Source: Pigoraptor vietnamica (Eukaryota; Opisthokonta; Filasterea). Taken from it: 25,000 bases of DNA. Position numbers and translations under genes: made by a program. Location of the stretch: assembly GCA_943704525.1 (NCBI GenBank), contig CALSCQ010003220.1, positions 1 to 25,000 on the forward strand. The letters run 5' to 3'. Positions 14 through 25,000 of this stretch are shown here, in pieces (the first letter of the stretch is position 1; each line of letters begins with the position of its first letter). The notes beneath the pieces were generated by a model. The model was given only the letters and a program-made list of their open reading frames with translations, did no database searches and was not told the DNA's origin.

Positions 14-1523
<1,510 letters not shown>

Positions 1524-1702
1524 GTTTCGGCTTACGTCGTTATCCGACGACAACTCCGCCCGCCGCGACTAACAACGCTTATATCCCTCGTTCGACACGC
1601 CGACAGCCGGAATGATGAAGTTGCCAAGGTCAGCTGTACACTCGAGCAACCGCGACGTCGCATCGATTAACGGCATTGTGCAAGCCAAAAAATTGATGAC
1701 CG

Positions 1703-1722
1703 CACGTGGCAGATCACGTGAT
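1703..1722. promoter_or_regulatory. Paired CACGTG boxes upstream of DHPS
   Basis: A G-box-like CACGTGGC starts at 1703, and the perfect 10-bp palindrome ATCACGTGAT lies at 1713-1722, about 180-200 bp upstream of the DHPS start codon and just past the stop of the ABC gene. CACGTG is the core bound by bHLH or bZIP factors in many eukaryotes. Function here is inferred from position only, and CACGTG is common across this window, including inside genes. Confidence 0.35.
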
Positions 1723-1748
1723 GTTTGAATTTAGTAATGCGTTACTTC

Positions 1749-3181
1749 TCAGGCGGCCTTGAGCCAGGCGCCCTGGGCCTGCCGCAGCGCGAGCAGCCGC
1801 GCATACACCGCCCCGCGTGCGACAAGCTCCGCGTGAGTGCCAGCCTCACAAATTCGCCCGTCGGAACCGAGCACAACGATTCGATCCGCAGCTCTCGCAA
1901 CGCTTTCGTCGATGTGCTCGCCCACAACAAGCAGTCCCGGCCGCTCGGCGGTCGCCGAACCGGGACTGCGGCCAAGCAGCGTCGCGACGGACATCAGCAA
2001 TCCCTCGGCGTCGTCCTGGTCGCACGTCAGAAAGGCGGCGTCCGCCAGCACGAGCCGCGGCTGTCGCAAGAAGGCGCGCGCGACTGCAATGCGCCTCGCA
2101 ACGTGCCCGGCAAGCACGATCGGCTTGACATTCGACGGCGGTTTGCGCGCCCCGCGAAGTGCCGGCGCAGCGTCACCGGCAGCTGCTCGAAAGTGGCTTG
2201 TGACGCGCGTGTCGTAGCCGTGAGGCAGCCGCATGATGGCGTCGTGGATGCCCGCACGCGCCGCAGCGTCCTGCACGGCCTCCAGCGAGCTCGCGCCTTC
2301 CGTGCCGGCCGCAATGTTCTCACGCACCGAGCCAGGAAACACGTCGTCATCCGCAGACAGCCACGCTACAGACACAGGGCCGTCGACCTCGCCGGGGCTC
2401 TTGGATTGCGAGCCGCGTCGCTGCAGTGGCGATGCCGGGACGCGCACGTTGCCGCCCCCGAGCAACTCCACCACACCGCGGTCCGGCGAGTAAAACCCGC
2501 ACGCTGACAAAGCGAAAATGCGAAGGTGAGTGGAAAGATTAGAAGAGTGCGAGATGTGGGTTAGCGAATGTGAGTGGGGGATGAATCTATGAGGCCACTT
2601 ACCCAAATCCAAAATGCACGAGACGCCTGTGTGGTGAAGTGTGCCAGCTGTCAGCACCAACGTCGAGCTCTTGTGAACGACAGCACAAGGGCACTCACCG
2701 AGGTCGGCTGGACCGTAAACATACACTACTTCGCCGCGCGCCACGTCGAGGGAAAATCCGCGCACGCCGTCCTTCCCCCACTTGCGCGGGTGGCGGCAGT
2801 CAACGTCCCGGAAGCGCAGGAGAGAATCGGCGTGTGCGGCGTCACTGCGGTCGCCGTGCGTGCTGCTGTCTGTGCGCATCGATCCCCGCGCAGAATGGAC
2901 GCCCGGCGCCGCGGACGAGTCACGCGATGCTCGAAGGGCGGCCTTGGCGGCGACATCGTCGTCGGCGGTGAACTTCGTTCCGATTAAATCGAACAGGAGC
3001 CTGCGAAAAAGAAAAAAAGGAAGAAATGCTCAATAAAACACACGCACACGCCAAATCAGAGACGCACACCCGTACACCACATACACGCGCCTGACACATC
3101 GCACATGCAGACATGCCTACAGGCATACACTCACTCACAGTCACTCATTCCACGGACGCATGCACAGTCACTTGCTCTACG

Positions 3182-3216
<35 letters not shown>

Positions 3217-4837
3217 CACGCGCAAGACGCACCGCGCGGCACTTGTGCTCGCAGAGTAGGCCTCCATCCGCTCAAAAAGGGCCTGAAGGTTCTCGAACAC
3301 AATGTCTGCGTACATAAAGAAGGCTAGCAGCTTGCCGCGGCTGAGGTCGCGCTCAATGACGTCGCGCGAGGCAAGCCACATGGCCACCGCAAAGCCGCTG
3401 CCGGACGCCATCGATATGAGGAAGTCGTAGGTGGCGGCGGCCTTGGCAGACAGCCTGTCGACGAGGTAGATCTCGCGGCAGAGGCGCGCGAAATTGCGCG
3501 TCTCGAGGTCTTCCGTGGCGAGATTGCGCACCTGCAGCCGAAGCGTGTCACGCCCACTGGCACACAACACACACGCACAGACACCAATCACCAAAACGAA
3601 TTGAACAGAATAAAAGGACCGGGAAAGAACCCTTGTCAAGGATACGCTGGCACGCCCACACACCTGCCGCACACGCAGAATGCTCGACTGCGCATAGTCC
3701 GCAAGTGCTGCCTCACGCCGCATCAGTCGCCCCGTGTTCCACCGCACAATCCTGCGCAGCAGCCGCGCTCAGCTCGAGATGCACAACGCAGCTGCGAACA
3801 ACACGCGCAATCACAACATGCGCACTCCACTCCCCAGTGTATGCGACAACACACGTCATGCGGCACCCACGCGTTGTACGGGAAGGTGATGAAGACGGAG
3901 AAGCCCGCGGTGGCGACGAGAATGGGCCCCAGGTCGGCGTTGACCCAGAAGAAGAACCCCAGTCCCATCGCCACGCCCACGCAGTTCTGGAGCATTTCCG
4001 CGCGGTCGTTGACCATCGTCTCCATGGCATCCACCTGCGGGGCGTCCGTGCCACGCCAGTGTGTGAGTGGGCGCAGAGCCCGTCATTTTTCCAATTGCAA
4101 CAGTATAGACGCAAGTTATCTGCACGTCCACGCACAAGCTCACACACGCCGCAAGAGCACTCCACACACCTGGCCGAGATAGGACACGAGCTCGTTTGCG
4201 CTGAAGCGGTCGATGTACTCGAAGGCGATGTGGCTGAGGATGGAGCGGTGGATGGCCGCGCGGAGGCGCTGAACGAGACGCGCGCTGCCCATTCGCACGA
4301 AAAGGGTTTTGAGGAACATCGCGGCAGACTGTCCGGCGACGAGCAGCAGCATGTCGCGCAGCAGGCGGCGAATTTCGTTCTCCTGTGCGTCGCGCTCCCT
4401 GTACTTGAGTGTGCCGCTCGCAATGTCGACCATGTCCTCAACGTACTGCGGGTAAGGGTGACAGCTGTGTTACGCACACAGTCACGAGCACACACTCACT
4501 CGCACATATCCATTAACTCACTGCCAGTCACCCATACAAGCACACTCACACTTTGTGCGCGCATGCACTCACAAGGGACGACACGCACCTTAATGAGTAT
4601 CATGGCCGCAGACGACTCCAGGAAGAGCATGATGACGGCCGGTACAAAGTACTTGTAGTCCGGGCGCGCATATCGCACCGTGCGCCATGTCAGCGAGTGG
4701 TCCAGCCACCCGCGAATGCCACCGCTGCCTTTGCGCCGTGACGTCGTCTCCCGCGCCTCGTCGTGCCACGCGTGCGCCGCACCCCCGCCCAGCAGTGGCG
4801 AGCGCTCTCCCGCCCCCACGCCCCCCTCCTCGTCCAT
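1749..4837 (-). CDS. ABC half-transporter with degenerate ATPase domain
   Basis: Eight exons (4837-4589, 4445-4170, 4034-3880, 3751-3664, 3531-3233, 3000-2699, 2626-2603, 2503-1749) join in phase to 715 residues. The first ~340 residues hold about six hydrophobic membrane segments of the ABCB type, and the rest is one nucleotide-binding domain. The fold is recognisable from GFYSPDRG after the P-loop, VFPGSVRENI, RRIAVARAFLRQPRLVL and GTHAELVARG before the end. Key residues are changed: the Walker A segment reads GPADLGVSC (Lys replaced by Val458), the Q-loop Gln is Ala515, the signature LSGGQ is LAGHV (595-599), and the catalytic Glu after the Walker B Asp619 is Ala620. The H-loop His661 is kept. 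The family normally exports substrates using ATP; this copy probably hydrolyses ATP poorly or not at all. Substrate and membrane are unknown. It may pair with an active half-transporter. Confidence 0.85.
2603..2626 (-). other. 24-nt micro-exon carrying the Walker A position of the ABC gene
   Basis: This exon is bounded by CACAG upstream and GTAAGT downstream and encodes GVSCILDL. It joins GPADL from the preceding exon to ACGFYSPDRG of the next without a phase error. The intron before it (2698-2627, 72 nt) has GTGAGT, a TGCTGAC branch-like site and CACAG. The intron after it (2602-2504) has CTAAC and CTTTGTCAG. Confidence 0.75.
3186..3215. repeat. (CA)n microsatellite in ABC intron 5
   Basis: Fifteen CA units lie in the 232-nt intron at 3001-3232. 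On the transcribed strand this is (GU)n, about 20 nt downstream of the GTGCGT donor. Confidence 0.95.
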
Positions 4838-5338
4838 GGCGCCCTACGCGTGCGCGCGTGCGTGCGTGTGTGTGTGTGCTTCAATGGGTGCGTCTTCTGT
4901 GTCGGATTCTGAGGATAGGAGTTTTGACTGCGACTGGGTCAGCGAATTCAAGCAGGGTGTCACAGCGCGGGTGGCTCAAATCCGTCACGTGCGTCGCTGT
5001 CCAGACATCTGTTGTCGTGGACTCCTCCCATTCCTTTGCGTCCCTCTTCAACTGTCGTTCATGCACTTCGCACTGGCCACCCTCCGCACCCCTCCTCTCC
5101 ATCCCACCCACGTCCATTCCTCCTCATCCTCCCCCGCTCGCACTCAACCAAGCTTCGAGCACTCATTGCAGTAGAGAGAGGCACTCCACTGCGCACCTTC
5201 GCCGGTTCGACAATTTCCACCGCGCTCGGTTCGCACGCTCTCAGCCAACTGCCACTGGCGCGGCCACAACACCTCCTTCCTCGTTCTCCCTCCCTGTGTT
5301 CATGAGGGTCGCGGGTGCGTCAAGCCCTTTCCCCTGAC
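4838..5338. promoter_or_regulatory. Divergent intergenic region between the ABC gene and ENTR1
   Basis: These 501 bp separate two start codons on opposite strands and so should hold both promoters and 5' UTRs. A short GT run lies at about 4865-4880 and a CACGTG at about 4985. A pyrimidine-rich stretch at roughly 5080-5160 (repeated TCCTCC/CCTCCT) precedes the ENTR1 start and may mark its core promoter or 5' UTR. No coding exon or TATA box is convincing. Confidence 0.5.
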
Positions 5339-7283: not shown

Positions 7284-8708
7284 TCATAGGAACACCTGAG
7301 TCGTCTCCTTCTCCTTGATGGCGCCCTTGAACGGCTCGTTCAGGTGCACGTGGCAGCCGAGGTCTCGCAGCGCCGCCTTGCCGACATCTCCGCACCCGGG
7401 CAGCTTGCGTGCGGCGCGCAGCACGCTCTCCGCGCCCTCGTCGAGGAAGGGCTGGCGCACTTCCGGGTTCCGCGACACAATGTTGCGCACGGCCATCGAT
7501 GCCACGCGCTGTACCTTGGCGTTGTCGGCGTGCAGGCGCATCGCCGTCACGACGAGGGGCACGCCTCCCTTTGCGTGGAAGGCCGCAACCACCTGCGGCT
7601 GCCGCAGCACGACCGAGCCGAGCGCCCCGAGCGCGTTCTCCACGACCGCCGCGTTCTTCGCGTGCGCCTCAAACGACGCCAGGATGAGGTCCAGCCCGCG
7701 GCCCATGCCCACCGACACCTTCACATCGTCGTTGCCCGCGAGGCACTTGATGAAGTTCAGCGCCTCGGACGCCAGCGGCGCCACCGTCCCGTTCGACTCG
7801 AGCGTCGACACGACGAGGTCGAGGCCCCCACGGGACACAATGTCCTTGCAAAAGTCGTCCTTCACGGCGAGCCGCGCAAGCACAGAGAAGAGCTCGACGG
7901 CCACGGGCGAATCAGGGCGCGCCTTGTTCGCCTGCAGGCACGCAATCACCGTCTCGAGCGTGCCGTTCTCCACCATCGCCGTCACGTGCTCCATGGACCG
8001 GCAGAACAGTGCGCGCTCGTCGTCCGAGAGCGTGAGCGAGCGCAGCAGGCGGCACGCGGCCTCCACCACTTCGTCGTGGGATGCGTGCCCTCGCATGGAC
8101 GCGACAGCAATGTCGATGATGCCGCCGTCGACGGCGCGCTGGCGGTTGATCTCGTTGCCAGTGCACGCGTCCGCGAGGGCAGCGAGGCCGCGACGAACGA
8201 GCACGGGGTCTTCCTTCACGGCCTCGAGCAGCATGAGGTAGATTTGCACGCCGTCCTTGCCGATGAGATCGCGGTTGGCGTCAACCTGCATGCACTCGTG
8301 GAAAATGTCGAGCGCGACGGCGACAAACTCCTCGTGCTGCACGAAGCGGTGGCCCGCAAACAGGCACAGCCTCACGCAGTCGTTCGTGCCCGCCACGACG
8401 CGCCCCTCGTTCTCCTTCACAAGCAGCTCGAGCAGCGCCCGGAATTGCGGGAGCACGTCCTCCGCCTTGCAATCGGCGTTGTCGAGCGCCCCCTTGAGCT
8501 CCGAGAGCGCGGTGGCCACGGCATGCTGCACGGGCGCACCGTCGGCGCCCACCGCTGCCGTCGTCACGACATTGGCAAGGTCCACGCCTTGCGACTCGAA
8601 CTGCTGCCGTGCGTCGGCGACGGCCTCCTCGCGAGACATGCCGAACTCGGACATGTTCTCGTCGACGACGGCGTCAAACGTCTCCTGCGTGATGCGCTTC
8701 TTGGCCAT
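7284..8708 (-). CDS. ARMC6: Armadillo repeat-containing protein 6 (ARMC6)
   Basis: A single open frame of 474 residues has no intron, unlike nearly all its neighbours. The N-terminus AKKRITQETFDAVVDENM and the following QFESQGVDL are hallmarks of ARMC6. The body is a run of armadillo-type helical repeats, with recurring patterns such as ALNFIKCLAGNDDVK and NALGALGSVVLRQP, and a GCGDVGKAALRDLGC segment near the end. Armadillo repeats form a curved solenoid for protein binding; the cellular job of ARMC6 is poorly known. The start was placed at ATG 8708; the frame continues 30 codons upstream without another ATG but includes the non-conserved leader. The gene converges with ENTR1, with about 250 bp between stop codons, and diverges from the SBDS-like gene. 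Confidence 0.93.
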   Translation of the reverse strand: MAKKRITQETFDAVVDENMSEFGMSREEAVADARQQFESQGVDLANVVTTAAVGADGAPVQHAVATALSELKGALDNADCKAEDVLPQFRALLELLVKENEGRVVAGTNDCVRLCLFAGHRFVQHEEFVAVALDIFHECMQVDANRDLIGKDGVQIYLMLLEAVKEDPVLVRRGLAALADACTGNEINRQRAVDGGIIDIAVASMRGHASHDEVVEAACRLLRSLTLSDDERALFCRSMEHVTAMVENGTLETVIACLQANKARPDSPVAVELFSVLARLAVKDDFCKDIVSRGGLDLVVSTLESNGTVAPLASEALNFIKCLAGNDDVKVSVGMGRGLDLILASFEAHAKNAAVVENALGALGSVVLRQPQVVAAFHAKGGVPLVVTAMRLHADNAKVQRVASMAVRNIVSRNPEVRQPFLDEGAESVLRAARKLPGCGDVGKAALRDLGCHVHLNEPFKGAIKEKETTQVFL

Positions 8709-9368
8709 TCTTGCCGTGGGATCGCCGCGATGCGTGGTGCTACTGTGCGAGGGCGAGTGTCTTATTGTTCGACGACTTGCGCTTGCTTTCGACAGCACTT
8801 TCTTTCGGTGACTGTGTGTGTTGTGTGGCGCTGCGTTTTATGCACTGCCCACATTCCTCGATGGCCGTGACATCACCACGCAGAGCCCACACTTGTCAAG
8901 CAAATTTGCGCGTTAATATGAACATTTCCATAAAATTGCAATCTTGGTATTTCTCTAAACGGGCTCATCGTGTCTGCGGTATGCGTCACTCGACTGTTCA
9001 TGGCATGGTGGAGGTTTCCAGTAACAAATTTTGTTACTTTAATGTGGTAAGCACCCTTGTTACCCTCTTTGCTTCCGTACGGCATTGTGTGCTTGCGCTG
9101 CGTGCTGCGCGTGCCACTGACGAACCCGTCGCACGGCCTGCGCACACGCCCAGTCCCAGTTATTTGGCTCTCCCACCCATTTTTTGCGTGGGAATGTGGC
9201 GCTTTGCAGTGTGATGACGCAAATGCTGTCGCCACTGTGCGTTGGCTGGGATCACAACACCGCGCCCATGAACTACCGTGCTTTTTCCCTTTTTTCTTTC
9301 ATTAAAACGAACCAAACGAACCAACCAAGCCGCCTCTTTCACCACTGTTTACTCTTGAGACACTGACC
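8709..9368. promoter_or_regulatory. Divergent intergenic region, ARMC6 / SBDS-like gene
   Basis: These 660 bp lie between two divergent start codons. The middle, 8890-9060, is clearly richer in A+T than its flanks and contains a 17-bp inverted repeat at 9021-9037. A T-rich stretch with CTTTTTTCTTTCATTAAAACG at about 9282-9307 lies 60 bp before the start of the plus-strand gene. No coding exon was found. Confidence 0.5.
9021..9037. promoter_or_regulatory. 17-bp inverted repeat GTAACAAA-T-TTTGTTAC
   Basis: Two perfect 8-bp arms surround one central base, inside the A+T-rich centre of the divergent promoter. The symmetry suits a dimeric DNA-binding protein. No known factor is assigned. Confidence 0.5.
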
Positions 9369-10068: not shown

Positions 10069-11789
10069 TTAGGCCTTGGCGGCGTAGAGGCGCTCCAGCT
10101 CCTCCACGTCCTCCTTGCTGCCGAGAAAGACGGGCACGCGCTCGTGGATGGCCTTGGGCACGTGATCGAGGATGGCGCCCTTGCCCGTGCTCGCGCGCCC
10201 GCCGGCCTTCTCCGTGAGGAACGCCATGGGGAAGCACTCGTAGAGCACGCGCAGCTTGCCGTTCGGCGCCTTCGAGTCCCCAGGGTACATGAACACGCCG
10301 CCGTACAGGAGCGTGCGGTGGACGTCGGCCACCATGCTGCCAATGTAGCGGAGCGAGTAGGGGCTGCCTTTCTTCGGGCGCTTCATGCCCTCCACAAAGT
10401 CCGCGGTGGGCTTGTCCCAGAACTGCGCGTTGCCCTCGTTCACAGAGTAGATTTTGCCGCGCGGGGGAATGCGAATCTGCGCAAAGAGTGCGGTTGCGAT
10501 TGGCGAAGAGTTGGACGGATGCAATGCCCGTCGCGCGCAACAGCACAGCCACTCACGTTCTCGTGTGTAAGGACGAACTCGCCGAGCGACTGCGAAAGCA
10601 ACAAAAAAACATCTCGCGTGAGCCAAGGACAACCACACGACAGGCACAATCACCACGACAACACGACGGCCCTCGGTGCATTCCTCATTCACACACCGGG
10701 TCGAGGGTGTAGCCGTGCACGTCGTGGCCAGTCGAGATGACAAGGACGGTGGAGCTGCCGTACATCGCATACCCCGCAGCCACCATCTCACGCCCGGGGC
10801 GGAGGACGTCCTCGAGGGTGCCCGTGGACGATGGGTTCTGAAGGCAATTTCACTGTCAGAAACCTCACTTGTGCCCAACAAGCATACACACACTCACACG
10901 TACACACGCGTGCACATGCACCCTTACACACGCATACAGTGTCACGTCAACATAACACAGCGACAACTTCCACAGGAACTGCAGCCCAAGCGGAATAACG
11001 CTTCGGGACCCACCACTTTGTAGATGCCGAAAATCGTGCCAATGCTGACACCGGCGTCAATGTTGGACGAGCCGTCGAGGGGGTCGAACACGACGGCATA
11101 CTTGTGCTGGGGCTGTGGTGTGGACGCGTGTTAGCAGTCAACCGCGCACTCAGCGGGCACACACGACGCGCACACGCCGCCCTTCAGGAACGCACCCTGG
11201 CGCCGTCCTTCTCCTTGACGAAGATGGCGTTCTCGTTCTCCTCCGACACCATCACGGACACCTTGCCAGACGACGCCAGCGCATTGATAAACACCTGCGG
11301 CGGCACAGAGGCAAACACAGACGGCAGTTGGCTCAGCAAAAGCGCGCACCATCACCGGCGAGACGACCATCGCACCTCGTTCGAGAGGACGTCGAGCTTC
11401 TTCTGAGTGTCGCCGGTGGTGTTCGTGGACCCGCCTGCCTCGCCCGTCCTGCGCCAAGTGTGCTTAGTGCGAGGGCAACAGATGCAAGCATAGTGCGCAA
11501 CTTAAACGCAGACATACGCACAGATACGCACTCATTTAGAAGTGCACACGCAACATCCAACACATCCACTCATCGTATCCACAAACAGCACTCGCGCAGC
11601 ACGTCACATTGCCACCCACAGGTTCACGAGGCCGGCCTTTCGCACACAGTTGCTGACATATTTGCATCCCAGCTGAATGGCGGCGAGGAGGAGGGTGAAG
11701 TCGCCCGTGGACTCGGGGTACTTGCGCTGCTCCTCAATAATGTGCCGCGTGAGCGTCATGATGTTCGTGTTGTGGTGCTCCGTCTCCAT
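10069..11789 (-). CDS. FBP1: Fructose-1,6-bisphosphatase
   Basis: Seven exons (11789-11620, 11448-11376, 11294-11196, 11112-11014, 10837-10697, 10589-10557, 10476-10069) give 340 residues, the usual size. The enzyme removes phosphate from fructose-1,6-bisphosphate in gluconeogenesis, or in a plastid Calvin cycle. Motifs: GSTNTTGD with KKLDVLSNE (metal and allosteric regions), VSEENE, the metal-binding [11 protein letters not shown] (about 123-133), [50 protein letters not shown] and [14 protein letters not shown] near the active site. No transit peptide is seen before the conserved [10 protein letters not shown], so a cytosolic form is likely. Exon 6 is only 33 nt. The exon 4 donor could be three bases earlier or later without frame change. 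No redox-regulation cysteine insert of the plant plastid type was noticed. Confidence 0.95.
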
Positions 11790-12277: not shown

Positions 12278-14271
12278 TCACGCCGTCCAGCCCACAGCGC
12301 GATCGATGATCTTCTGTGCTGAGCGCGCTGCTTCCGCAGGCAGCGTGCCGTAAACAAAGCCACCCCCGCCCAGCCGCGACGACAGGAAGGCGTTCAGCAC
12401 TTCCGACGGCGAATTCTGCGCAAGCAGCGACGCTTGCATGCAGACGGCCAGCCGCTCGACCACTCGGCGCGCCCCAATTTCCTCGAAAGGCTTTGACACG
12501 AGGGCGCGAAGGCCGTCAATTTCGTCGTCCAGCCGCTTGTCCGCGCCGCGCGCGTGCGCCAGCTCCGAGAAGAATGCGTCCACGCTCTGCGGCTCCGTCT
12601 TCATCGCACGGAGAACGTCCAGCGTGATGACGTTGCCCGAACCCTCCCAAATTCCGTTGAGCGGCGCCTCGCGGAAGGCACGCGCAAGCACGCCGTCCTC
12701 GACGTAACCGTTGCCGCCATGGCACTCCATCGCCTCGTGCACGTGACCGACGACGCGCTTGCAGATCCAATACTTGGACACGGCCGTCGCAATGCGGCCA
12801 AACGCCCGCTCGCTCTCGCTCTGCCCAGCGCCAAACGAGCGCGCGAGGCGCATAGTCATGAGCGCCGCTGCCTCCGACTCGATCGCGAGGTCCGCGAGCA
12901 CGTTCGCCATAAGCGGATGCTGGCGGACGGCCTTTCCAAACGCGCGGCGGTGGCTCGTGTGGTGCACGGCGTGGATCACGCCGAGCCGCATGAGGGACGA
13001 CGCGCCGATGCAGCAGTCCAGGCGCGTGTGCATGACCATGTCGATGATGGTGGGGATGCCGCGGCCCTCGGGACCGACGCGCACGGCGTACGCGTTGCGG
13101 TACTCAATTTCGGACGATGCGTTCGACTTGTTGCCGAGCTTCTCCTTCAGCCGCATGATCTGCATCGAGTTGCGCGTGTCGTCCGGTCGCCACCGCGGCA
13201 CGAGGAAGCACGTGGGCGCGTTGGAACCGGGCGTCTTGGCGAGCGTGAGGAAGGCGTCGCACATCGGCGCAGAGCAAAACCACCTGCAGAAGGGCGGCTG
13301 TGAGGCCTTGCACAAAGCGCACGCCCCTCACGCTGCGGCCGTAAAAACAAACGAACAAACCTATCGAATCTGATTCTGACGGTATGACACAGAGGAGAGG
13401 TGAGGGAGAGAGGACTCACTTGTGGCCCAGAAGGAGATATTCGTTCTTCGTGCTGCCCGGCAACGGCGTTGCGGTGGTTGTGTTTGCGCGCACGTCAGAG
13501 CCGCCCTGCGACGCCAATTCGATCAACCCATGCCAGTCCCAAGGCACAGAACAACGCAGCCGCAAACTGCACAGTCAACAAGCGCACCTGCTTCTCCGTC
13601 ATGGCCATGCCGCACTGCGCGCCAGTCTTCTTGTGCGCCGGGAGAACGCGCGGGTCGTATTCGTTGCTCTTGAAGCGCGGCTCCCACTCCTTCGCCACCG
13701 CCGCCTCGTGCCGGATCGCCGGCACAGCAGCATACGTCATCGACAGCGGGCAGCCAATCCCAGATTCCGCCTGGCTAAAGAGGTACAGCTTCATGGCGCG
13801 CGCCACGTGTGCGCCGGGGCGGCTCTCGTTGTTCCACGCGTACGAGTGCACGCCGTGCGAGACGGCCATCGTCATCAGCCCGTGGTACGACGGGTGGAAA
13901 TCGACCTCGTCCACGCGGTTGCCGTAGCGATCGTGCGTCTTCAGCGTCGGCGTGTACTTGTTCGCGAGGTGTCCCATCTCGATAATCTTGTCCGTGCCCA
14001 CAATGCGGCCGAGGTCGCGCACGCTCTCGATGGCCCACTCGGCGCCCTCCGCCCGCAGCACGTGCCGGAGAACGACATCATTGTCAAACGCGTTGTAGTT
14101 CTCCAGCGGAGGCGGCTGGTTTTCGACGCGGTGAGTATGCGGCGATGGCCCATACGGCGATTCAGCGGGGGAATCGGCAGGCACGGCGGCAGCACTGGAA
14201 GCAGCCCTCGCAGTGTGTCGGAGGGCAGAGACGCGCGGTGTGCGGCGCCCCACGCTGCGCAGCGCGTACAT
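12278..14271 (-). CDS. AidB-like acyl-CoA dehydrogenase, probably mitochondrial
   Basis: Three exons (14271-13588, 13505-13420, 13283-12278) give 591 residues. Similarity to bacterial AidB runs through the protein: PLENYNAF, REAVTREGA-like LRAEGAEW, DEVDFHPSYHGLM, MTEKQGGSDVRANTT at the FAD site, LKEKLGNKSNAS, CKRVVGHVHEAMECHGGNGYVE and the FREAPLNGIWEGSGN motif with the conserved Glu near residue 470. These flavoproteins belong to the acyl-CoA dehydrogenase family; the physiological substrate of AidB-type members is unsettled. The first ~45 residues are rich in Arg, Ala and Ser and lack acidic residues, as in a mitochondrial targeting peptide. The frame runs further upstream to a TTG, but the first ATG is at 14271. 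The end reads GWTA with no peroxisomal SKL. Confidence 0.92.
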
Positions 14272-14687
14272 TCTCTTGAGAACAACGGAGTACAGTCGAA
14301 AAATAAAGTTCCGCAGCGTGTGGGTGGTCGATCTGAGCAAGCGGGAACTTATGAAGGTGTCGTGTGCCCGTGTGTGTGTGTGTGTGCTAGAATGTGTGAC
14401 ATGCCGTCATTTAGTCAAATGTCGTCATAGTGACGATTACGTGTTACCCGCACATGCCCACACCTGTCAATCGCTGTCAAACGCACACACCCGCGCAGTC
14501 ACCGACCCACACGACAGAGTGTGCAGCCCTCCTGTTCTCAAGGCGCAGGCGCCGAGAGGACGTTATGCCGGCGACAGCTTGAACGCTTTGAGCAACAGTG
14601 TAGCTGGTTCATCCGCCGGTGACTCTAAGTCCGACGCGCCGGCGCCGAGAAGCCGCCTTGGCTGCGGCTTCACACAATCAACTGAGG
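14272..14687. promoter_or_regulatory. Divergent intergenic region, AidB-like / PDI
   Basis: These 416 bp separate two divergent start codons. They contain a short GT run at about 14371-14386, a cluster of CGTCA/TGACG half-sites at 14405-14436, including the inverted repeat TCGTCA-TAG-TGACGA (14422-14436), and a CA-rich patch. No exon was recognised. Confidence 0.45.
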
Positions 14688-18006: not shown

Positions 18007-18616
18007 GAATGGGTTTTCCACGCACCAGTACCATGGTGTACATGTCACACGCACAATGGAACAACGAGCGGCGCCACGCACGTGTCAAGGCCGGGCTCGG
18101 TGGGCTCCCACACGTCAACGGCGGTCCGATAGGAGATGCGTGTGATTTGGTGCACTCCCGGCACGCGCCTCTTCGCAATCTCAGCCACGGAGACGGCCTT
18201 TGCGACGGATCGCCCGACGCCGCAGAGCACGGACGTTCCTTCTGTCGACTGTGCACCGAAGCGCAAGATGTAAGAAAGGACAGCGGGTCCAAGGATTCAC
18301 GCATTCAGCGGAATGCTTCCCCATATACTTTTCGCCCGCACTTTTACCCCACACACTCAAACACACCCGCACACACTTACATACAGACTGCTCCGACATG
18401 CTTCAAACAGTGACCAATAACAACCGCCCACACACAAGCGTGCATGCATGCACACACCCTCAACATCTCGACCGCCTTGCCGACGTACTCGTGCACTTTG
18501 CCACGTGACACAATACGCAGCGCGTTCGGCGGCACAGGCGCTGTGTCTCCCATGTCGTCGTCGGCACTTGCGCGGCCGATGACATCCTGCGCCTTGCGGT
18601 ACTTTTCCACTGGCAT
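17009..18616 (-). CDS. Alba-domain RNA/DNA-binding protein with RGG tail
   Basis: Four exons (18616-18458, 18248-18082, 17623-17532, 17382-17009) give 263 residues. The Alba fold spans about residues 25-110: RIVSRGKVHEYVGKAVEML, then SVLCGVGRSVAKAVSVAEI and PGVHQITRISY, matching the RNA-binding loop and helix pattern of Alba/Rpp20-Rpp25 proteins. A short basic linker (AKKK RGREKH) leads to a long low-complexity tail that ends in GRGSHGGGRGGRGRGGGG, an RGG-type RNA-binding and arginine-methylation region. Alba-RGG proteins in plants, trypanosomes and apicomplexans act in mRNA storage and translation. Intron 2 is unusually long (458 nt) because it contains a duplication and a G35 tract. The 3' end converges with the PDI gene, about 210 bp apart. 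Confidence 0.87.
17697..17861. repeat. Two-copy ~88-bp tandem duplication in Alba intron 2
   Basis: Copies at about 17697-17780 and 17784-17861 share GAGAGGGTC, AACTGAACGCCACT, ATCGAGTGCG, CACATGTAC and CAGCGCTGCAG at a constant offset near 88 bp, with small indels. The first copy begins about 75 bp upstream of the intron's 3' splice site as transcribed. Confidence 0.85.
17954..18005. repeat. (GT)n followed by a 35-base G tract in Alba intron 2
   Basis: About eight GT units (17954-17970) run into 35 uninterrupted G (17971-18005). On the transcript of the Alba gene this is a C tract followed by (AC)n. Single-stranded, the plus strand could form a G-quadruplex. The exact length is unreliable in sequencing data. 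Confidence 0.95.
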
Positions 18617-18669
18617 GGCAAGCAGATGTCGGATCAGCTTCCGTCAAAGCCATCGACTCAAATAAACAG

Positions 18670-18679
18670 ACACACACAC

Positions 18680-18761
<82 letters not shown>
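18670..18761. repeat. Long (CA)n microsatellite upstream of the TBC gene
   Basis: About 46 dinucleotide units with one phase slip at 18680/18681 lie between the Alba start codon (18616) and the first recognisable TBC exon (18799). Read in the TBC frame the tract would encode alternating Thr and His, which is unlikely to be real protein. Confidence 0.95.
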
Positions 18762-18763
<2 letters not shown>

Positions 18764-18798
18764 CCGCTCGCAACTTCCTCACTGCGCCCGTTCTGCAG

Positions 18799-19372
18799 AT
18801 TCCCCGAGAGCGACTACTTTCAGTCGCCGCGAATTCGCGCCATCATGATGGACGTCCTGTTCTGTTACACGAAGCTCCACCCGGAGCTGTCGTATCGCCA
18901 GGGCATGCACGAGCTGCTTGCGCCGATCATCCAAGTGCTCGACTGCGAGAAGATCTCTTCGAAGGACGGGTGCGTTGTTGCCGTGTCCGATAATGGCGTT
19001 TGTGTGAGCGTGCGTGCTGTGCTGTGTGCTCGTGTGCGTGCTGGGCTTACGGCTGGAAGACTGCATGAGCTTTTCCATTCCGTCTGTGTCCATTTGTTGT
19101 GCCAGTACGTGCCAACAGACCATCATCTCTGTTTGCGCATCGCACAATGTTGACCGCGCACATTTTCGTTCCCATTTCCGCCTTCAGCGACGAACTCATG
19201 CGGCTGATTCTGAGCGAAGATCACGTGAGGCACGACTCCTTTGCCCTGTTCTCTCGCCTCATGGTGTCGACGCGGGAGTGGTACACGCAGGGCGACGACA
19301 CGCGAACACCGCGAACATCCGTGGTCAGTGTGCACGCGAGGCTCCCACAACATACACGCACACATACACGCA

Positions 19373-19404
<32 letters not shown>

Positions 19405-19457
19405 CACCACATACACACACACACACACGCACACACACACACACACACACACGCACA

Positions 19458-19490
<33 letters not shown>

Positions 19491-21532
19491 GTTGCAGGCT
19501 CATCTGTTGAATACGTCACTGTCACTCATGCTTTTGCTTCGCACAGCCCCAATCGCCGGGCATCGTTTCCCTGGGTTCCGTGTCGAGCGAAGACTCGGTG
19601 AGTCGTCGTGCCACACAGCGCTAGGGCGCGTGCGACAACTTCAACAATCATGCTCCTGCGGTCGCGCGCACTTCGAGTTGTCCTTCTCCCCCGGCTAATC
19701 TTTTTGTTCTCCGCGATGATGCAGTCGTCTCCGCCGGCGATTGTTACGAAGCTGCGCCGCATTCAGCACGTGCTGTTGCGTGAGGTCGACCCCGAGCTCT
19801 ACCAGCACCTCCTCAAGATGGAGATTGAACCGCAAATTTACGGGCTGTGAGTGGTCTCTGAGGACTCGTGCGTGGCCACATGCGTGCGCGTGCCCACTCA
19901 CAAGTGCGGACGCATGCACTTTGAAGACTCACACACAATTTCCTCTTGCTCTGTTACTGATACGGTGTTCTGTCATTGTTACGGTCCACTGATGTACTAT
20001 CGCTGAATGCTGTCGCAGGCGGTGGCTTCGCCTCTTGTTCGGGCGCGAGTTCCACCTCGTCGACGTGCTTGTGTTGTGGGACGCCATTTTCGCCGACGGC
20101 TCGCAATTTGAAATTGTGGACTACATATGCGCCGCGATGCTCTCGTACATTCGCACGCACCGTGAGTGGCTCTCTCTCTGCGTTGCAGCGTCAGTTATAT
20201 GTGCATTCGCCCCTGCGTCAGACTTCACAAACGCCGTCGCGCTGTGTGCGTGCATGTGTGCTGTCACCGATTTTTCTTTTTGGTTAACTCTGTCGTGCGC
20301 AGTTATACAGGGAGACTACGTCACGTGCCTCAAGCGCCTCATGAAGTATCCGCCAGTGGAGGACGTCCGCATCATTATCGAGAAGGCCCAGCAGATACGG
20401 CAAAACCAGAGCCAGATTGCGCGGTCGGCGTCGCCGGTCCCCTCGAAAGGGCGCACGTCCGCAGCATCCGGGGGTTCCTCGACGCCGCCCACGCCGACGC
20501 AGTCGCTCTCGAGCACAAACTTCGCCAACGCACTTGGGGCAACGACGTCCACACGCCCGAGCCCTGGCACGCGGCGACAGTCGGCGGGACCGCAAGCGGC
20601 GCCGCGGATGAAGGTTGGCAGCTGGGTCAGACGGTGATGATCGTGCGTGCGCCACTGGCAGACAGAGAGGGAAAGAGGCGCGTGAAGTGTTGTTTAAGAG
20701 GCGCGTAAAGTGTTGTTCTGCATCAATTTTTGCATCGGACCGCTTCTCACGCCTAACCGTGCTCTCCCCAGGTGCAGGACCTTGCAAAGCCAGTGGCAAA
20801 CTTTGTCAGTTTCATCGGAAGTTCTTTCCGGTCCGTCGGAGACTCGACCGCCGTCCCTGCGACCGCGCCCGCGACACAGTCCTCCACAGCACCGCCGGCG
20901 GAGAAGTCGAATCGCGTGTCTGTGATATCGACCGAGGGGAGAGAGACGCCGCCGAACGCACGGCCGTCCACGCCGACCCGCGAAAGGGTCGCGCGCCAAA
21001 AGTCAACGGCAAGCGTGGCAGGTGGGGACGTGCTTTCGTTTTGTAAAAGTGTCGTTGTGAAATGGCGGTTTCCGCGTTGCTGACCCTCACCCCATCTACG
21101 TGCACAGGAGCCGCGGAGGACGCACAGCGGGTGCGTGATCTCGAGGCGATGAACAAGGCGTGCGCGCGTCGCATACAGAGCCACCTCCGCAAGCTCGAGC
21201 AAGAGCTGGCCAAGATGCCCGACGGCGGCGGCGAGGACGGTCCGGACAAGCGCGCCATGTACCTCGCCATCGCGGGACTCAAGCAGACGCGCGACATTCT
21301 CTACGGCGACCTGCCTTTCCACGCGGCGGGTGACGCAGCGGACGGCGAAGGGACCGAGGACGAGAGCCCGGTCAAGGAAGCGTCCGCCGACGGAGAGGGC
21401 GCGGGCGCGGCTGGCAGGGCCATTTCGCGCTCGCTCTTTGCGGGTGAGAGTGCTCCGGGGACGCAGGAAGCGGAGGCATCGCCGTCGATAGGCGCGGCTG
21501 CCATCGACCCGCTCGGGGCGCTGCTACACTGA
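18799..21532 (+). CDS. TBC1D5: TBC1D5-like Rab GTPase-activating protein, 5' exons not found
   Basis: Eight exons (18799-18969, 19188-19323, 19547-19597, 19725-19846, 20019-20161, 20303-20613, 20772-21021, 21108-21532) give 535 residues to the stop. FPESDYFQSP, VLFCYTKLHPELSYRQGMHELLAPI (with the glutamine finger YRQG), LMVSTREWY, EPQIYGLRWLRLLFGREF, VLWDAIFADG and GDYVTCLKRLMKYP match TBC1D5, a Rab7 GAP that works with retromer and in autophagy. After the TBC domain is a Ser/Thr/Pro-rich linker and a C-terminal coiled coil (LEAMNKACARRIQSHL and AIAGLKQTRDIL) also seen in this subfamily. The first visible exon starts in phase 2 after CTGCAG; the exon that should carry the IxxDxxR arginine finger is absent. 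The donors at 19324 (GTCAGT) and 20614 (GTTGGC) are the least certain. A continuous frame to an ATG at 18626 exists but crosses the CA tract. Confidence 0.87.
19352..19490. repeat. Compound (CA)n/(GCAC)n tract in a TBC intron
   Basis: CA and GCAC units fill most of the 223-nt intron 19324-19546, leaving about 55 nt with a normal pyrimidine-rich end before the CACAG acceptor. The His/Thr-rich frames here are artefacts. Confidence 0.95.
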
Positions 21533-24359: not shown

Positions 24360-25000
24360 CTACACGGCGATCCCCGAGAGCGACGCGGTCGATCCCGCCT
24401 TCTTCATGCCATCCTCCTCAGACTCGCGAATCGTCGCGATCGCCGGGTTCGCCGCCGCCGCCGCCGCCGCGAGCGCCACCGTGGGGTCACCCGGGTCCGA
24501 GCTGGACCTCCGGCGCTGCGCCTCGTCGCCAATCGACCGCCGGCGAGTGGCTTCGTCGCTCATCGAACGGGCGGCCTCCGGTGCCAGGCGCACAAACTTC
24601 TCAAAGGCGTCCTTGCTCAGCGTGAGGAAGAACGACTCCTCAAGCGCCGTCGCCGTCGCCTGCCGCGGCTCCTCTTCGAGCAGCTCGACCTCGCCAAAGT
24701 AATCGCCCGTGCCGAGCGGCTGCGGGAGCATGTCGGCGCCGTCGGGGAGAGTCAGGCGAACCGCGCCCTTGAGAATGACGTAGAGCTTGTCGGGGACGCT
24801 GCCGGCCGTGAAGATGACGTCGCCCTTTTGCCTCTGCTCGTACACGAGAAGCGACGCGAGAAGCTCAAACTTGGACCACGGCTTGTTCTCCTTGATGCCG
24901 CTGAAGAGGCGCACCGTCTTGAGCGTCGTCGCCGTGCGCAGGTTCATGATGGCCTGGCACGTGTCGCGCAGCTCGGGCGCGATCGACAGGAACTTTCCAA
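24360..25000 (-). CDS. Cyclic-nucleotide-binding-domain protein, 5' part off window
   Basis: One continuous exon enters from the right edge and ends at TAG 24362-24360, giving the C-terminal 212 residues. A complete cyclic nucleotide-binding domain is visible: KPWSKFELLASLLVYEQRQ, KGDVIFTAGSVPDKLYVILKG, then the phosphate-binding cassette GDYFGEVELLEEEPRQATATA, with the Glu and Arg that hold cAMP or cGMP in this family, and FFLTLSKDAFEKF. Upstream, IAPELRDTCQAIM suggests the linker from another domain, perhaps a second binding domain. After the domain is a tail with RRRSIG and RRRSSSD, basophilic-kinase-like sites, an Ala-rich stretch and an acidic patch. It may be a PKA regulatory-like or effector protein; the part off the window would decide. 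No channel segment is in view. Confidence 0.85.
   Translation of the reverse strand, partial: GKFLSIAPELRDTCQAIMNLRTATTLKTVRLFSGIKENKPWSKFELLASLLVYEQRQKGDVIFTAGSVPDKLYVILKGAVRLTLPDGADMLPQPLGTGDYFGEVELLEEEPRQATATALEESFFLTLSKDAFEKFVRLAPEAARSMSDEATRRRSIGDEAQRRRSSSDPGDPTVALAAAAAAANPAIATIRESEEDGMKKAGSTASLSGIAV

Follow-up and report, generated by a model that had tools for sequence, protein, structure and literature searches.

A predicted ABCB-type half-transporter with substituted ATP-site motifs in its only ATPase domain in a single-celled eukaryote

In the present study, a gene encoding an ABCB-type half-transporter was predicted on the minus strand (1749..4837) of the window, the whole stretch of 25,000 nucleotides that was analysed. 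In the predicted protein, the P-loop Lys, the Q-loop Gln, a proper signature and the catalytic Glu are all missing, and the ATPase domain is still recognisable. With these residues lost, normal ATP binding and hydrolysis by this dead domain would be unlikely, and the protein, if used at all, probably has a role different from that of a pump powered by ATP. On balance, the results favour a protein-coding, single-copy half-transporter that has turned into a pseudo-ATPase and probably works without ATP turnover.

Gene model and membrane half

The half-transporter gene, carried by a single-celled eukaryote, was modelled as eight exons with a coding sequence of 2157 nt, open throughout and encoding 718 amino acids. 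Exons 1 to 5 (4837-4589, 4445-4170, 4034-3871, 3751-3664 and 3531-3233; together 3233..4837) encode a predicted cytosolic N-terminus containing ERSPLL and six predicted membrane helices (aa 64-82, 115-133, 189-207, 208-226, 296-314 and 327-345). Exon 6 (3000-2699) holds the linker and the start of the ATPase domain, including the A-loop position His429, exon 7 (2626-2603) is a microexon of 24 nt that supplies most of the P-loop helix, and exon 8 (2503-1749) encodes the remaining ATPase domain and the stop. The original prediction placed the feature at 1749-2999, which corresponds to the linker and ATPase domain (exons 6-8), but the gene extends to 4837. Its description of a frame open over eight exons agrees with the 718-aa model, in which all seven introns are GT-AG and 72-232 nt long, with the donors GTGCGT, GTGTGT, GTGGGT, GTGTGT, GTGCGT, GTGAGT and GTAAGT. 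The true frame obtained the top codon score of the six frames in 7/8 exons, the exception being exon 7, whose 24 nt are below the useful length for a codon-usage test. The plus strand antisense to exon 8 (1722-2507) is also open over 261 codons, probably through a codon-bias effect in a GC-rich genome, and open frames alone are weak proof here.

The identification as an ABC half-transporter was upheld by Pfam, which found one ABC_membrane domain (aa 68-339; 60.2 bits, cut-off 28, E 3.4e-16) and one ABC_tran domain (aa 439-624; 32.7 bits, cut-off 25, E 1.3e-7). The domain order is TMD-NBD, with a single, C-terminal ATPase domain, as in ABCB-type half-transporters. Six of the eight hydrophobic segments lie in the membrane domain, placed as in a type IV exporter, and the remaining two, which are short, fall in the ATPase domain. 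A phmmer search of the PDB with the full protein retrieved 221 distinct sequences at E <=0.001 (best 3e-28), and the best 60 of the 221 were mostly ABCB1/ABCB4-like, matched via the ATPase part. The first 369 residues retrieved six sequences, headed by ABCB9 (E 3.3e-9), the closest relative with a solved structure for the membrane half, with ABCB10 next. Among 59 NCBIfam models matched, the top two were MsbA_rel (1.1e-43) and antigen peptide transporter 2 (6.9e-42); both scores are far under the cut-offs of those models, and the protein remains below the cut-off in all of the best 25 of the 59. The likeness to the ABCB9/TAP lineage is one of sequence similarity in the membrane half. The pattern [DE]xxxL[LI] is an endolysosomal sorting signal, and ERSPLL occupies aa 11-16 in the predicted cytosolic N-terminus. 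Together with the ABCB9/TAP-like membrane half, this motif points weakly to an endolysosomal address, the hint being weak because the 718 residues contain four matches to the pattern.

Several other genes were observed in the window. A long uninterrupted minus-strand frame (7287-8837, 517 aa) contains armadillo-type repeats, and a fructose-1,6-bisphosphatase C-terminal domain lies at 10072-10893 on the same strand (E 6.7e-52). Two adjacent minus-strand frames at 12281-14406, matching an acyl-CoA dehydrogenase C-terminal domain and AidB_N, probably belong to a single AidB-like gene interrupted by an intron. On the plus strand, two frames at 18509-20634 match pieces of one RabGAP-TBC domain, the first with a long CA-repeat inside it, and a minus-strand cyclic nucleotide-binding domain (24363-24998, E 1.3e-20) continues past the window end.

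ATP-site motifs and the exon model

The losses affect several elements of the ATP site. The Walker A motif, GxSGxGKS[TS] in intact domains, reads GPADLGVSC here (aa 455-463; 2616..2714, minus strand, as for all of the following), is split by intron 6, and carries Val461 in place of Lys. Alignment with intact domains places Ala518 (2352..2354) at the Q-loop position and LAGHV (aa 598-602; 2100..2114) at the position of the signature, which is LSGGQ in intact domains (one with V first, one with E last). The same alignment shows that Asp622 of Walker B is kept and that the catalytic Glu is replaced by Ala623 (2037..2042). These five observations had all been made in the original prediction and were confirmed. 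Three further ones had not: the A-loop position, occupied by Tyr in six of the seven controls and by Phe in one, is His429 here; the D-loop SALD has become LTCD, with the D kept; and the H-loop position (Glu663-His664; 1914..1919) is ambiguous, since Glu663 aligns with the His of intact domains, His664 adjoins it and insertions lie nearby. A 23-residue insertion (aa 571-593; 2127..2195) containing LRGAR directly precedes the signature, and some HMMER alignments set LRGAR against LSGGQ. Whether the displaced signature is LAGHV or LRGAR is uncertain, and both are degenerate. The Walker A GxxGxGK[ST] and the signature LSGGQ of a functional ATPase are thus absent from this protein, and so is the pair of Walker B Asp and catalytic Glu, of which the Asp is present.

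These losses might be only apparent if the exon model were wrong and the correct transcript restored the motifs. The model was predicted from genomic DNA, and introns 6 (2698-2627, 72 nt) and 7 (2602-2504, 99 nt) are both multiples of three and stop-free, so that they can be read through in one continuous frame (1749-3029). In addition, a spliced aligner proposed three small extra introns within exon 8. However, a six-frame scan of 1500-5000 for GK[ST], SGG[QEH], SxGQ, D[ED][AP][TL] and [AG]HR yielded on the minus strand just two AHR strings, both in one frame, and none of the first three patterns in any minus-strand frame. Motifs split by a junction escape such a scan and are covered, for the forms enumerated, by the splice enumeration. 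Among in-frame, stop-free joins of exon 6 to exon 8, GK[ST] appeared in 0/30 one-intron and 0/127 two-intron forms, and SGG[QE], SxGQ or DE[AP]T appeared in 0/307 in-frame one-intron forms of exon 8. The different exon carrying GxGKST, which the original prediction had named as the case against itself, was accordingly absent among the 157 enumerated P-loop forms, and retention of introns 6 and 7 would add 57 residues and restore no motif. When an intact domain from contig C565 was used as the query, spliced alignment selected exon ends (2699, 2626-2603 and 2503) identical to those of the model, including both ends of the microexon, and these junctions give a gapless fit over GPADLGVSCILDLACGFYSPDRG. 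The proposed extra introns of 42, 81 and 45 nt are short, have GTC donors unlike the seven others and leave the motifs unchanged, and they were judged to be coding; it is possible that the 81-nt stretch is an intron, with the ATP-site motifs unaffected either way. Restoration of the motifs by a hidden exon or by alternative splicing was therefore rejected on the motif scan and the splice enumeration, and an erroneous exon model is a highly improbable explanation of the losses. As a separate observation, skipping of the P-loop microexon or retention of introns 6 and 7 around it would stay in frame, and a splice switch at this place is possible.

Intact domains and the question of decay

The organism's own genome (32.5 Mb, 1395 contigs) was scanned for comparison and contained at least 20 ABC_tran matches, with 20/20 above the cut-off (19 of 104 candidates scored), and 41 ABC_membrane matches. 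Six controls were taken from it: four domains recovered by spliced alignment (contigs C814, C1264, C238 and C1026) and the two domains of C565, which were read directly. A genome-contig scan with the two intact C565 domains as queries gave six bacterial loci, and four of these had a usable frame (L066 and L068 had none). The column test used seven of the ten aligned intact domains, namely the six own-genome controls and bacterial L063, the others (L064, L065 and L067) being left out as judged to belong to other ABC families. All seven retain the Lys of Walker A, the Q-loop Gln, SGG in the signature, Asp-Glu in Walker B and SALD, and the H-loop His is present in all six controls covering the H-loop, the domain of C1264 having been recovered short of it. 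With these seven as reference, the half-transporter keeps 6/17 invariant ATP-site columns, against 16-17 of 17-19 in leave-one-out controls (n=7), and 19/37 other invariant columns, against 28-37 of 32-48 in the controls. The original statement that the fold motifs around these sites are kept therefore holds for 19 of these 37 columns, and the rest are lost. The contrast between ATP-site and other columns was not significant (Fisher p 0.38), and focused loss at the ATP site was rejected as proof of selection. The ATP-site loss is genuine and exceptional, yet it is set in a domain that has diverged throughout. Identity to the seven intact domains is flat (28-33%), which argues against a recent duplicate of any of them. 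The gene is single-copy in its own genome, where no close paralogue was found, and descent from a recent duplication of a paralogue was rejected on this flat identity and the one copy seen. A search for relatives in viral contigs gave one pattern stretch, and none was confirmed. Another ABC membrane-domain gene (L053, contig C807, 24500-27713) reaches its contig end; spliced alignment revealed no credible ATPase domain there, where the contig stops.

The main question concerning the origin of these losses is whether the gene is maintained or is a decaying copy, in which the ATPase domain, or the gene as a whole, came free of constraint so recently that stops and frameshifts have not yet arisen. 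The erosion spans the entire ATPase domain, as the 19/37 other invariant columns indicate, and this part of the gene has a weaker codon score than the membrane half (0.06 against 0.40, with a scoring trained on three coding stretches only) and a lower GC3 (0.76 against 0.83), which is what relaxed selection would give. Its GC1 (0.74) and GC2 (0.53) are above those of all eight other own-genome ABC domains (0.61-0.72 and 0.36-0.51), and its amino-acid make-up has thus shifted. On the other hand, silent sites of the ATPase part resemble those of a gene: the third-position GC of 0.76 is far over the 0.545 of the gene's introns (p 4e-15) and lies at the low end of the 0.756-0.90 in the eight other ABC domains, and the fourfold-site GC of 0.76 falls within their 0.73-0.95. 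Seven consensus splice pairs are intact, and the flat identity to the seven intact domains speaks against a copy of recent origin. Compared with four paralogues, the gene has eight internal insertions, and every one of them preserves the frame; under neutrality the chance of this is roughly one-third for each, and some may be older than any loss of function. The probability of losing the key residues without acquiring a stop was estimated with a neutral codon model (kappa 2, 60.6% GC, indels ignored). For the ATPase part alone, the best joint probability was 10^-3.98 with five residues and 10^-4.87 with seven, and for the whole gene 10^-5.58 and 10^-7.02, respectively, or at best about 10^-4 and 10^-5.6; these values are maxima over time rather than p values, for residues picked after observation. 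An old dead gene is unlikely, because the frame is open, the insertions are in frame and the silent-site composition is gene-like. Recent decay is possible, and as the explanation of the locus we regard it as doubtful. The original judgement that this is not simple decay is thus supported by the open frame, the in-frame insertions, the silent-site GC and the neutral model, and is not proven by them.

Possible role and comparison with known systems

Half-transporters must dimerise, and a dedicated non-hydrolysing half of a heterodimer, as the original prediction had proposed, could pair with a normal ABCB half (C814, C1264, C238 or C1026) and tune its ATP use. Intact ABCB-type ATPase domains do occur in the genome on half-size-looking genes, those on C1264 and C1026 being located at contig ends, and degenerate heterodimers are common according to one review (PMC7756269). 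The same source describes how, in an ABC dimer, each ATP is sandwiched by the signature of one domain and, from the other domain, Walker A, Walker B and the A-, Q- and H-loops; the degenerate exporters reviewed there keep a canonical second site, at which hydrolysis takes place (PMC7756269). With any normal partner, however, the present protein would leave one composite site lacking both the Lys of Walker A and the catalytic Glu. The second composite site would lack the signature Ser and second Gly, with the 23-residue insertion alongside. Since both composite sites are altered, judging from the sequence of this protein, the arrangement in which one stays canonical, of the TAP and TM287/288 kind, is not found, and a heterodimer half in its usual, classical form fits poorly and is unlikely. 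A homodimer would have the same losses and no canonical site. In either pairing, ATP-driven pumping would be unlikely.

We therefore return to a pseudo-ATPase that probably works with no turnover of ATP. A dimer would form through the six-helix membrane half and the dead domain, either between two copies of this protein or with a normal ABCB half, and it may act as a fixed scaffold, a receptor or a regulatory subunit in which no ATP is turned over. The receptor-like role suggested originally is compatible with the results, and no finding points to it directly. A more specific and tentative possibility is a half-transporter altogether free of ATP, a conserved non-pumping receptor or scaffold whose P-loop microexon is spliced in and whose former ATP interface has an insertion next to it; this would be the ABC counterpart of a pseudokinase. 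A half-transporter in which both composite sites would fail would show that the ABC fold can persist without ATP, and it would be a natural test of what a dead domain is for; should the gene simply be in decay, it would be a curiosity of one species.

An 'atypical' ABCB3 of Leishmania is reportedly the subject of one published study (PMC4700571). In the literature searched, which included few subscription papers and several sources available in part, no half-transporter was met in which all of the sites described above are lost. A single crippled ATP site is common among ABC exporters, and in those covered by the review the second site is canonical (PMC7756269). ABCB9/TAPL and TAP1-TAP2 (ABCB2/3) likewise combine one six-helix membrane domain with one ATPase domain. 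TAPL is an ATP-driven lysosomal polypeptide transporter (PMC9532399, PMC6695453) and TAP has one degenerate site (PMC7756269), whereas here a single protein has lost Walker A, the Q-loop, the signature and the catalytic Glu. Yeast Pdr5 is described in the review as among the largest deviations, with Walker A Lys>Cys, Walker B Glu>Asn and H-loop His>Tyr in NBD1, the signature LNVEQ in NBD2, and an NBS2 that stays canonical (PMC7756269). Pdr5, however, is a full-length transporter of inverse topology with its losses spread over two domains, whereas those reported here fall in the single domain of a half-transporter. Human ABCB5-beta is an atypical half-transporter-like ABCB protein with an ATPase domain lacking the A-loop and Walker A (PMC11391348). 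Isoform choice truncates that domain at the N-terminus, and there is a second ATPase domain besides it, whereas the only ATPase domain here is full length and substituted. A more general parallel is offered by pseudoenzymes such as pseudokinases and prozyme, in which the fold is retained and the catalytic motif is gone (PMC10211241, PMC5201418), as in the half-transporter predicted here.
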